This document shows positions 45,944-49,840 of a stretch of DNA of 64,000 nt, in pieces. This DNA is from Thiomicrorhabdus chilensis DSM 12352 (GTDB lineage: Bacteria; Pseudomonadota; Gammaproteobacteria; Thiomicrospirales; Thiomicrospiraceae): contig NZ_KI519609.1 in the NCBI RefSeq assembly GCF_000483485.1, positions 417,026-481,025 of the forward strand. Direction: 5' to 3'. The first letter of the stretch is position 1. Every line of letters begins with the position of its first letter. The notes under the pieces were generated by a model. It was not told the origin of the DNA. It worked only from the letters and a program-made list of their open reading frames with translations, and made no database searches. A program made the position numbers and the translations under genes.

Positions 45944-48586
45944 TTATGGTGACGTTGTATTTTGTGTTGCCAACACTTCAGGAACCGGTGGATTTTCCTC
46001 GTACATGTATTTGAATCGACGTACGTGACTGTCGCCGTCAATTCCGCCGTGCTCGACATCGTCGGCATGCATGCTGTACACAAAACTCGGACGAATGCTT
46101 TGATAAAGCAGTTCCACTTCTATAGCGAACGGGCCGGTGAATCCGTTGGTGTCGATTCTATAGGTGACCGTGTCTTTGCCGTCGGATCCAGAACCGTCCT
46201 TACCGCTGGCGAAGTTGGTATCCCCAGCTGCCAGACCGGTGACATCATCGTCATATTGTCCTGGCGTGACCGGGTTGGCGTGGCGATTATCCAAGGTCCA
46301 ACCAATCGGCGGAATGCGATTGTCTTTGATGTATTCGTTGGCGTGCAACAAGACATGGGTGATGTCGCCGTTGACGTCGCCCAGAACCGGCTCGTAGATT
46401 TGAACCTGACTGGCATCGTCAATGACATCATGATGCGCTTCGTAACAGCCGTCGGCCAGCGAGTCAAAACCGGTTTCCTTATTGATTTCCAAACAGGCAC
46501 TTTGGATAAAACCGGTGATGTCATTGTCTTTGGCCAGACGTCCGTTGGCATCCACCGCACCGGATTCAAAAATAACCGTATCACTGTTGGTGTCGGTGAC
46601 GGTCAGGTGCACCCACATACGTCGCGAAGGGAAGCTCGTCGGCAATCGGTGACCGGTCAAGTTGGTGATGGTTACCGGTACAGTTAATTCATTACCCGCT
46701 AGAGATGAAGTGACTTCCAAGCTCGCCGCAGATTCCAGCATGGAGCGTGTTTGCGCAATCTTTTCATCAAAACCGGTTTCCGTGGTTTTATCGGCAATGC
46801 CCAGCTCTTCCATATAGGTTTTCAGCAAGCCCAGTAGGTAGCTGTTGCCGCCTACAAACTCGTGGACTGAGAAAACAGTATCAGCATCATCTTTTGCAGC
46901 ATCAGGCCTTGCCGAGGCTGAAGTTGGTTTGGTGGTGATTGGGGTTGTGTAACCTGGTTCAGGTTGGGCCATATGGCAGGCCTGACAGGTTTTATTACCT
47001 TGCGGATTGTTGACATCGGAATAGATGCTATTGAGCCAATCCCAGTAAGGGGTTTGTTCTGGGAATTGTGCAATCTTATCTCCCTCAGCCGTTGTGACCA
47101 AATGAGGGTCACCGTTCAAGTCCAGGGTCGGCGTGTAAAGGTTGTGGCAGGTCGCACACATGGCCGACTCACTGATGTGCGCGGCATATTGTGGCATGTA
47201 TCCAGTCTGGGTCTGCATGTTTGAACCAATTGGACTTTTAAATGGGCCAAAAATGCTTGGGGCTATACCAGCATCATTATTGTCAGCCTCAGATTTGATT
47301 ATGTAGTGTCCACTCATGCTTGCCAGCAGATTCTCTTCTGCGTTTTTTATCGGATCAGTAATAGTGGGGTCTTGCATTTGGTGGCAGGCAGTACAAGAGA
47401 TGCCTTCGCGAGCATGCGGATCAGACATCGCCGTTTCAAATGGATAACCTCCGTCAGGGGACAGACCGGTCGGATCATCAACCAACCCTGTGAGGGTTTG
47501 ATGTGCATGGGTTGAGGCCATGGGAGCATGGCAACGCAAGCAGGTGTCTTCTATAAACACTTTTTTATCCGGGAAAATGTGCACCTCTTCTTCGACCACG
47601 GCATTGTAATAAGGGTCATTTAACGAGTGTGCCATGACGCTGTGTTTCCACTGGGTCGGCGGACTGATGTCGGTATTGTCATAATTCATCACCGTGGTGG
47701 TCCCCGTATGACACGATGCGCAGGTGCTGGCATTGGTGAAGACGCCACGTGTGCCCCAGTTGGCTGAGTAGGTTGGATTGTTGAATAGTGAGCTGTGTTC
47801 GCTATCCAGCAAGGAGATGTCCGCTTGCGCGTCGGCAATGGTTGCATTGACCGGCGAGCTGAGATTGACCACAAACGATTTCAAACTCGTGGTATCCCGC
47901 CCGTCTTTGAGCGTGATGCTGATGGTTTTTGTAGTGTCTCCTGCGGCAAACGTCAGGGTGCCGCTGGTCGTGTCGTAATCCGCCGCACTGGTAGCCGATC
48001 CGTCCCCTGTTGCGTAGTCCACGGCTACTTCCTGGTCGCTGACCTCTGATAGGGTGACGGTCACATCTAAGTTGGTTGCAATGTCTGTGGCTGTAGCATC
48101 GGAAATAGAAAGGCTTGGAATGATATTAGTTCCATTGCCTGAAAGTAGAACAATAACAGCTTGGTTGTTGGCTAATTCAGCATTCTTAGGGTTGGATAGG
48201 TTGATTAAAAGTGTTTTGAGTAAACTCGTGTCACGGCCTTCCACCAAAGTAACGCTAATGGTTTTGACGATTTCTCCCGGGGTGAATACTAGAGTTCCAC
48301 TTGTTGTTTGGTAATCAATTCCGTTATTTGCTGATCCGTCCGCTGAAGCGTAGTCCACTGTCACTTCCTGATCGCTAGCCGCAGACAGCGTTACCGTCAC
48401 ATCCACACTGGTGGCCACATCCACAGCGGTGGCATCGGCAATCGACAAGCTGGGCGTTGTGGGTTGTGGAGAAGGCTCATCAGAACCACCTCCGCCTCCG
48501 CCTCCGCAAGCGCTTAGGAATAAACTGAGAAAGCTTATGAACAGTAGATTGAGCAGTTGGTTTGGGCTGAATGAATAGTGTGACAT
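45944..48586 (-). CDS. Five-heme cytochrome c lipoprotein with Calx-beta-like repeats
   Basis: This 880-residue protein starts MSHYSFSPNQLLNLLFISFL and has lipobox LSAC followed by seven Gly, typical of lipoproteins displayed at the outer membrane. Residues about 45-265 hold two Calx-beta-like repeats (YASADGSANNGIDYQTTSGTL and YATGDGSATSAADYDTTSGTL). Residues about 285-590 carry five heme motifs (CASCH, CLRCH, CTACH, CATCH, CQACH). A beta-rich C-terminal region with no heme follows. It probably moves electrons in the periplasm or at the cell surface; donor and acceptor are unknown. It is monocistronic, with its own terminator. ATG 48586 has AGGGA upstream. Confidence 0.88.
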   Translation of the reverse strand: MSHYSFSPNQLLNLLFISFLSLFLSACGGGGGGGSDEPSPQPTTPSLSIADATAVDVATSVDVTVTLSAASDQEVTVDYASADGSANNGIDYQTTSGTLVFTPGEIVKTISVTLVEGRDTSLLKTLLINLSNPKNAELANNQAVIVLLSGNGTNIIPSLSISDATATDIATNLDVTVTLSEVSDQEVAVDYATGDGSATSAADYDTTSGTLTFAAGDTTKTISITLKDGRDTTSLKSFVVNLSSPVNATIADAQADISLLDSEHSSLFNNPTYSANWGTRGVFTNASTCASCHTGTTTVMNYDNTDISPPTQWKHSVMAHSLNDPYYNAVVEEEVHIFPDKKVFIEDTCLRCHAPMASTHAHQTLTGLVDDPTGLSPDGGYPFETAMSDPHAREGISCTACHQMQDPTITDPIKNAEENLLASMSGHYIIKSEADNNDAGIAPSIFGPFKSPIGSNMQTQTGYMPQYAAHISESAMCATCHNLYTPTLDLNGDPHLVTTAEGDKIAQFPEQTPYWDWLNSIYSDVNNPQGNKTCQACHMAQPEPGYTTPITTKPTSASARPDAAKDDADTVFSVHEFVGGNSYLLGLLKTYMEELGIADKTTETGFDEKIAQTRSMLESAASLEVTSSLAGNELTVPVTITNLTGHRLPTSFPSRRMWVHLTVTDTNSDTVIFESGAVDANGRLAKDNDITGFIQSACLEINKETGFDSLADGCYEAHHDVIDDASQVQIYEPVLGDVNGDITHVLLHANEYIKDNRIPPIGWTLDNRHANPVTPGQYDDDVTGLAAGDTNFASGKDGSGSDGKDTVTYRIDTNGFTGPFAIEVELLYQSIRPSFVYSMHADDVEHGGIDGDSHVRRFKYMYEENPPVPEVLATQNTTSP

Positions 48587-48826
48587 GGTGATGTCCCTGC
48601 AAAGCGTTGATGTAGCGGTAATTACAGCACTGGCATGGTGGCCTGTCAAAGACAACCCCCTCCTTTATTGACCAGAATCAATAAATGGACTGGGTTTTTT
48701 AATTAAAGTTTGGATTTAAGGAGCCGATATAAATACCACATATAAAAAAATATAAAAAACTTTGTTGAACATGCTTTAAACAAGGACGCACAAGGGTTTT
48801 AAATTCCAGAAAAAGAGTATCCAGTT

Positions 48827-49840
48827 ATGTTGAATCCAATTTCCAACTCCACTTGGTTGAATCAAAATCCGCATGATGCCAAATCCGATAACACAGCGTC
48901 CGATAAACTTAACTTGGGCTCGCTGCTTCAAGCCAAACAAAAAGCGGATTTGATGGCGAGTGCAAAACCGAACCCTCAGGATTTGGCGAATAAGTCGGAT
49001 TCGACCCGACTGTCAACCTCCGCTATGCAGCACATGGAGCAGGCTTATCAGTACAGCGAAACCATGAGTTTGCAACTGACTACCCGGGAAGGAGACCAGG
49101 TGACGGTGGATTTTCGTCAGCTTTATGCGCAGTATCAGTCCTATAAGCTGGAACAGCAGGCGGAGCAAGGACCAGAGGGCGTACGTTATTTTGAAAGCCG
49201 GGAAAGCATGGAAGTGACCGCTTTTGAGGAACGTTTCGCGTTTTCGGTGCAAGGTGAGCTCAATGAAGACGAACTTAAGGCGGTGTTTGAGGTCTTTGAA
49301 CAGGTCGATGGACTGGCGAATGAATTTTACAATGGTGATCTTGAGCTGGCTTTGCAAAAAGCGATGGAGCTGGAGATGGATTCCGGTCAGTTGCAAAGCC
49401 TGCAGTTGAATCTGACTCAAACAACCGTGGTTGCAACCCGCTACCAGGAGTCCGCCATGGCGCAATATGAAGCCATGCAGCAGGATGCTGATGTCGACGA
49501 CGCACAAGGCGGAAAGATAGCCGATTTACCTCCGTATTTGCAAAAATGGCAACAAGCGGTGGAACGTTTGGATGAGCAGTTTGAAAACGCCCAGGAATTT
49601 TTGGATCAGTTGATGGCTAAAGTATCCGAGCAGCGCTTTCCACAACAGGACGAATCTCAAGAGTTTACGGGTTGGCTGGAGCGTATCCGTGATTTTCACC
49701 AGCAACTGTCTGAGTTGATGGGCGCTGAGAAACCTGGCGCTAAAGAGGCCTTGGAGCCATCACAGCAATCGCTTGAAATGCCTGGAAATAATGAAAAATT
49801 AACCGAAAAAATATCAGAAAAAACTGCAGTAACCGCCTAA
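48827..49840 (+). CDS. Conserved hypothetical protein (DUF5610-like)
   Basis: This 337-residue acidic, Gln-rich protein has no signal peptide. Residues about 85-205 (MSLQLTTREGDQVTVDF, then FAFSVQGELNEDELKAVFEVFEQVDGLANEFYNGDLELALQKA) resemble a domain found in many gammaproteobacterial hypothetical proteins; I recall it as DUF5610-like but cannot verify. The rest is low complexity with short coiled coils. It is monocistronic and followed by a terminator at 49950. The 240-bp gap upstream is AT-rich, and I see no other feature in it. Function unknown. Confidence 0.75.
   Translation: MLNPISNSTWLNQNPHDAKSDNTASDKLNLGSLLQAKQKADLMASAKPNPQDLANKSDSTRLSTSAMQHMEQAYQYSETMSLQLTTREGDQVTVDFRQLYAQYQSYKLEQQAEQGPEGVRYFESRESMEVTAFEERFAFSVQGELNEDELKAVFEVFEQVDGLANEFYNGDLELALQKAMELEMDSGQLQSLQLNLTQTTVVATRYQESAMAQYEAMQQDADVDDAQGGKIADLPPYLQKWQQAVERLDEQFENAQEFLDQLMAKVSEQRFPQQDESQEFTGWLERIRDFHQQLSELMGAEKPGAKEALEPSQQSLEMPGNNEKLTEKISEKTAVTA

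Follow-up and report, generated by a model that had tools for sequence, protein, structure and literature searches.

A lipid-anchored pentaheme cytochrome with Calx-beta domains in Thiomicrorhabdus chilensis: a PHC-family protein with indirect indications of surface display

We report a predicted lipoprotein of the sulfur bacterium Thiomicrorhabdus chilensis which, as judged from a structural model, is a member of the pentaheme cytochrome (PHC) family described in the literature, as is Geobacter ExtKL, and which presents a new architecture within this known cytochrome family. The new architecture is well supported; the case for display of the protein on the cell surface is indirect but coherent. 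The gene lies in a 64-kb stretch of DNA, the whole of which was analysed and is referred to here as the window.

Translation of the reverse strand from the ATG at 48586 (45944-48586) yields 880 aa. In the raw list of open reading frames the same frame opens further upstream at a TTG; the ATG was chosen, and the real start may be upstream because a Lys or Arg is missing ahead of the hydrophobic stretch of the signal peptide. Along the protein there follow a lipobox (LSA|C27), a glycine tract (Gly28-34), two Calx-beta domains, five CxxCH heme motifs and a heme-free C-terminus, an order that the earlier note had read and that translation, Pfam and the motif positions bear out (Table 1). Shuffling the protein 2000 times never gave two or more CxxCH, so the five motifs are not a product of chance. 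PHROGs matches were confined to the signal and Calx-beta part, and among the Pfam families listed (E up to 1) none matched best in the C-terminal ~260 residues. The architecture had also been called unusual, which it is, but it is not isolated, as relatives exist with PKD, F5/8C or GSDH domains. Our literature search found nothing pairing a pentaheme cytochrome with Calx-beta and nothing joining a cytochrome, Calx-beta and extracellular electron transfer.

Table 1. Features of the PHC gene and its surroundings (window coordinates; residue numbers refer to the 880-aa translation).
Feature	Coordinates	Strand	Basis or remark
PHC-family lipoprotein gene, 880 aa	45944..48586	-	Translation, ORF list
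Lipoprotein signal peptide, end LSA|C27	48506..48586	-	Sequence
Gly7 directly after the lipidated Cys, GGG at P2'-P4'	48485..48505	-	Fit to the motif described in PMC12802150
Calx-beta copy 1, about residues 45-149	48140..48454	-	Pfam, NCX1 alignment
Calx-beta copy 2, about residues 157-260	47807..48118	-	Pfam, copy alignment
Heme motif I, CASCH 289-293	47708..47722	-	Alignment
Heme motif II, CLRCH 349-353	47528..47542	-	Alignment
Heme motif III, CTACH 398-402	47381..47395	-	Alignment
Heme motif IV, CATCH 477-481	47144..47158	-	Alignment
Heme motif V, CQACH 534-538, Met539 next	46973..46987	-	Alignment
C-terminal beta-sandwich, about residues 618-880, part of 5ZE8-like fold	45947..46735	-	AlphaFold2 model, structure match
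GH[RK]LP...R loop, residues 645-656	46619..46654	-	Alignment of 32 selected rows
Terminator-like hairpin, 12-bp stem, just past stop codon	45897..45926		Scan, listed on + strand
Promoter-like TTGACA-17-TGTAAT	48621..48649	-	By eye; FNR-like box centre about 25 nt upstream of first hexamer
FNR-like palindrome TTGAY-N4-RTCAA	48668..48681		Single strict match in the 64-kb window

The assignment to the PHC family follows from an AlphaFold2 model in which the heme domain and the C-terminal sandwich together match 5ZE8, the pentaheme cytochrome c552 of T. tepidum (TtePhc). This core model was built from 32 alignment rows (pLDDT 85.2, pTM 0.89); an earlier one from 12 rows (pLDDT 58) was too poor and was set aside. 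Foldseek returned 5ZE8 as the single PDB match of the core model at E<=1e-3, and VIA-align superposed the two with Z 20.7 and rmsd 2.9 over 348 of 385 residues at 24% identity, the other matches listed having Z 9.6 and below and covering the C-terminal sandwich only. In profile searches the core hit 5ZE8 at E 3.8e-9, and a weak match followed to the selenocytochrome MccSep (E 0.006). In NCBIfam, ExtKL was the best heme-family match of the window protein (E 1.6e-7), and its model was matched by all eight relatives scanned; an ExtKL equivalog (NF040886) was nevertheless rejected, the score being 30.2 bits vs a curated cut-off of 250. In PMC11976967 a PHC family with an Ig-like domain is described that comprises ExtKL, Gsu2801 and proteins of cable bacteria and is related to TtePhc. 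The window protein has all five CxxCH in one domain, which in the predicted model is followed by an Ig-like beta-sandwich in the TtePhc fold. Heme part and C-terminus thus fall in a known cytochrome fold, which goes part of the way to what the earlier note had named as refuting its reading, but an established role for the 5ZE8 cytochrome was not encountered in the cited literature.

Each known relative resembles the window protein in part. TtePhc likewise unites five hemes with a C-terminal beta-sandwich in a single fold, but its 435-aa chain is too short for stalk modules, and in the HMMER alignment it has a His at Met318 of the window protein, a position occupied among the 32 selected rows by Met (28), His (3) or Lys (1) and conceivably a heme ligand. 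The cable-bacterial sPHC and lPHC, as described in PMC11976967, also have a pentaheme domain, an Ig-like domain and optional extra domains, yet these are truncated hemoglobins, as opposed to Calx-beta and a lipid anchor here. ExtKL and MccSep (NF040886; PDB 9WT8) give weak, consistent profile matches and share a GHxxP loop; the window protein differs in having Phe652 instead of Sec and in scoring far below the cut-off.

The conserved unit of the family is the five-heme domain plus the C-terminal beta-sandwich, and the N-terminal modules change among relatives: L052 has PKD plus Calx-beta, L036 and L040 have F5/8C or PKD together with a sugar-dehydrogenase-like propeller (GSDH, Pfam), and some others show no further known domain beside the core. 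Fusion of a GSDH-like propeller to the pentaheme core is seen by Pfam GSDH in L036 and L040 and by a PQQ-dehydrogenase-like NCBIfam in L043 and L036; in these three proteins the cytochrome core may take electrons from the fused dehydrogenase. A core relative of 33% identity, annotated as cytochrome c family protein, is found on the plasmid record NZ_CP087125.1 (58178-59596) of Sulfurovum mangrovi. The core profile was matched at E<=1e-3 in 70 of 369 genomes of the wider class, many matches being short or weak, and at E<=1e-20 in 9 of 398 genomes drawn phylum-wide, own genome counted.

We consider it somewhat probable that the protein is a lipid-anchored PHC carried on a Calx-beta stalk, displayed at the surface through T2SS/GspN, acting as a wire to the outside and placed under FNR-type control. 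According to this proposal, lipidation would occur at Cys27, whereupon the glycine tract would direct the protein into type II secretion with GspN and so to the outer face of the cell. A spacer of several nanometres, made of the two Calx-beta domains, would then lift the heme module off the membrane. The five hemes would make up a short wire that links a partner to an electron donor or acceptor outside, and the conserved GHxLP loop would be close to the likely site of exchange or reaction. An FNR-type regulator would raise expression as oxygen falls.

The evidence for the secretion route begins immediately after the lipid Cys, where the window protein reads CGGGGGGG, all seven residues at P2'-P8' being Gly. 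This fits the Gly/Ser- or Asn/Asp-rich motif that PMC12802150 reports after the lipid Cys of T2SS/GspN surface lipoproteins (Acinetobacter), a sorting motif described there as required yet not sufficient. Six or seven G, S, N or D occupy the seven post-Cys residues in all nine Thiomicrorhabdus orthologues, six of which (G000, G018, G005, G015, G022, G009) have GGG at P2'-P4'. Relatives outside the genus have 4 to 7 such residues of seven, with a weaker motif (4 to 5 of 7) in G238, G270, G274 and G084 and with G341 set apart because the looser lipobox rule took the wrong Cys there (MTACNSSP is also listed). Two other window lipoproteins found by a stricter lipobox rule, CSSMKVEG and CQHQQLET, are without the Gly motif; this control is small and incomplete, and the stricter rule missed the PHC gene itself, which has no Lys or Arg near its start. 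The genome also encodes, in a row, GspD (540 bits), E, F, G, K, L, M and GspN (T2SSN E 1e-14). Beside the T2SS genes we observed a 1516-aa open frame (L129 1-4549) with multicopper-oxidase, cadherin-like and Ig-like matches, possibly a secreted oxidase. The Gly-rich tract right after the lipid Cys and the presence of GspN in the genome liken the window protein, whose transport by this route is predicted, to InvL and PulA (PMC12802150); these two are an adhesin and an enzyme, respectively, and not cytochromes.

Further indications come from relatives. The proteins of G045, G307, G091 and G198 end in GlyGly-CTERM-like tails, as recognised by eye with the account of GlyGly-CTERM in PMC3237569 as guide. 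Rhombosortase scored above the cut-off in these four genomes and in G400, whose protein tail is cut off in the sequence, and in none of three Thiomicrorhabdus genomes tested; all 14 controls ring below the cut-off, and only matches above it count. The PKD, F5/8C and GSDH modules of relatives are more usual outside the cell. Surface display of the lipoprotein is thus likely on sequence grounds, and once displayed it could trade electrons with its surroundings. The surface-displayed electron carrier proposed in the earlier note accordingly finds indirect support in the Gly motif, the T2SS/GspN genes and the GlyGly-CTERM-like tails, but by another route: what had been taken for a glycine "tether" can be re-read as an address label of T2SS/GspN for surface export.

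A periplasmic or retained lipoprotein is an alternative we hold doubtful. ExtKL is called periplasmic in PMC6148476, as are the cable-bacterial PHCs in PMC11976967; PMC5877670 describes ExtKL as abundant in outer and cytoplasmic membrane fractions. GGG, moreover, leads to inner-membrane retention of lipoproteins in Pseudomonas according to PMC12802150. Nor was an outer-membrane conduit found, either with the MtrB model, which gave no match though its control was silent too, or with DNA patterns for CxxCH pairs 20-80 nt apart, which hit one place only in the own genome, DnaJ-like by eye, and would miss widely spaced motifs such as those of the PHC gene; since no conduit was found, a surface PHC cytochrome would be without a known inner supplier. 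Against retention stand the GlyGly-CTERM-like tails and the PKD, F5/8C and GSDH modules in relatives, as well as the T2SS genes with GspN in the genome.

Signals for the expression of the gene were sought around it. The FNR-like palindrome of Table 1 follows TTGAY-N4-RTCAA, which we take to be the FNR-type consensus, and the promoter-like site is placed as expected for activation by a class I FNR protein; the scan does not list this site, since its rule asks for an A as second base of the second hexamer. Strict boxes occur upstream in five of nine orthologues, at 95, 99, 117, 201 and 327 nt from the nearest ATG (G000, G018, G005, G014 and G019, respectively). When the upstream regions of seven of the nine orthologues were aligned (G014 and G019 left out), the right half TCAA was invariant in all seven, three of them strict. 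As background, eight loci with a total of 189,551 nt contained six strict boxes, four of which lie upstream of the PHC gene, and 33,000 nt of PHC-less proC loci contained three, all within the span of the flank gene. The indications for FNR-type regulation of the PHC gene are suggestive only. The PHC gene probably stands alone, and the nearly symmetric hairpin past its stop codon may serve it too; terminator-like sites in the region numbered 4 vs 3.7 in shuffles, so there is no enrichment.

The same box is compatible with another reading, that the protein is a catalyst and not a wire, an open heme site by the GHxLP loop reducing a small substrate (an oxyanion, a sulfur compound or an oxygen species) under low oxygen. 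We regard it as a tentative possibility, and an unlikely one. PMC11976967 places cable-bacterial PHCs among cytochromes with pentacoordinate hemes, and PMC5877670 names ExtKL as a candidate in selenite reduction. In MccSep the selenocysteine, given as X in the entry of the wild type and as A in that of the U325A mutant, seems to lie within the GHxxP loop. In the alignment (A2), which joins the 12 sources of an earlier alignment (A1) with 20 of 31 trimmed homologues and whose first row has Met in place of Leu259, its first codon having been read as a start, GH and P of the loop are invariant, His646 and Arg655 are present in 32 of 32 rows, and His575 and His646 are the invariant His besides those of the hemes. 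These figures describe selected rows and not the whole family, because A2 left out 11 homologues: L038 (unknown residues, three motifs) and L053, L061, L063, L076-L079, L081, L082 and L085 (for the most part divergent or with six motifs). Eight of the 11 (L061, L063, L076-L079, L081, L085) gave no match to the GHxLP pattern. Against a catalyst, the selenocysteine position is Phe652 here and Tyr or Phe in 29 of the 32 selected rows, by which a selenoprotein was also rejected; on heme ligation the analysis covered the conservation of His and Met in the sequence.

The Calx-beta domains bear on a further alternative. Pfam Calx-beta (PF03160) matches two stretches of the protein (E 3.4e-28, 98.5 bits vs a cut-off of 27), and the copies are 63% identical over 104 aa. 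The alternative that follows the earlier note is calcium-dependent adhesion of the cytochrome, by way of these domains, to a solid or to a partner cell; in its favour, both are real Calx-beta domains similar in sequence to NCX1. However, the NCX1 loop IIDDDIFEED[E/K], whose acidic residues presumably bind calcium in CBD1, aligns with LVEGRDTSLLK in copy 1, and copy 2 reads LKDGRDTTSLK at the same place, so that both copies have a GRDTS..K loop in place of the acidic one. With a script pattern the new loop was picked up twice in the window and once each in G005, G014 and G030, but not in G018 or G055; G015 and G019 have a variant form. The number of copies also varies among the nine orthologues, from two in the window protein to one above the Pfam cut-off in G018, G005, G014, G030 and G015, one just under it in G019 (25.7 vs 27) and none in G022 and G009. 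Because the acidic loop is replaced and the copy number varies, calcium-dependent adhesion appears unlikely, and we hold the calcium-bound, adhering cytochrome highly improbable. Giant open frames of 9550, 5293 and 4467 aa, perhaps adhesins, with several matches from the Calx-beta side were observed at G033:C1:138602-150601, G015:C1:138312-141110 and G030:C1:1431338-1434451, respectively. A role as building block of extracellular cytochrome filaments of the archaeal AvECN type is hardly credible for the protein, which despite a structural comparison of sPHC, TtePhc and AvECN published in PMC11976967 has large N-terminal modules, a lipid anchor and five hemes vs four; AvECN was not among the best 50 matches of either fold search and OmcA (4lmh) reached E 0.11, which proves nothing.

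Within the genus the PHC gene was found in nine of 32 genomes, in eight of which it lies beside proC. In the window its neighbours are proC-yggT and a divergent gene (48827-49840) with no Pfam match at E<=0.001. In the ninth genome, G014, the gene is on a small contig and the proC site is without it; there (L004 2877-4794) it adjoins a sensor kinase and a response regulator, RegB/RegA-like by eye. Among the 21 PHC-less genomes with a proC locus (none was obtained for G010 and G029), the divergent flank gene lies upstream of proC, at most about 0.7 kb away, in 16, and it is absent near proC in G021, G004, G027, G011 and G028, the last at a contig end. By this pattern at the proC locus, the PHC gene is now present, now absent at a site that stays mostly the same.

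As the earlier note had stated, the PHC gene has no partner cytochrome next to it: among the kept, non-overlapping window ORFs of 110 aa or more it is the only one with CxxCH, and the 14 loci (13-18 kb) that surround the gene in relatives likewise gave no other CxxCH ORF. Some members of the genus have been reported to grow on electricity at deep-sea vents, and electrosynthesis in the genus has been ascribed to one gene cluster in one clade (PMC9751133, PMC13293256). This MHCR/EEU cluster of 'Ca. Thiomicrorhabdus electrophagus', as portrayed there, resembles the PHC case in the genus, in multiheme cytochromes and in the proposed electron exchange with solids, and differs in comprising 30 genes vs a single one. 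Three dense CxxCH places on one contig were found in G001, G012, G017, G023 and G028, and could not be shown to be the published cluster. Triheme proteins were read in G017, G023 and G012; they are related but not alike. G010, which is without the triheme signature, has a ten-CxxCH protein of 463 aa (L128 4360-5751). The repeated dense signature occurs in none of the nine PHC genomes vs 5 of 23 others of the genus; mutual exclusion of the two was rejected as not significant (Fisher p 0.29, or 0.15 with the G010 decaheme, 6 of 23).

Taken to its full extent, the surface-wire reading would give non-cluster Thiomicrorhabdus a second, single-gene means of outside electron exchange, a T2SS/GspN-exported PHC on a Calx-beta stalk that is induced at low oxygen and dispenses with a conduit; as a whole we think this improbable. 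A single-gene, possibly surface-displayed cytochrome is in any case a second candidate for outside electron exchange in other Thiomicrorhabdus species, and one that is testable by simple removal of the gene. For the family, our data portray one redox unit that is kept, with exchange of the anchor, lipobox or GlyGly-CTERM-like tail, and of the N-terminal module, be it Calx-beta, PKD, F5/8C or a sugar dehydrogenase.
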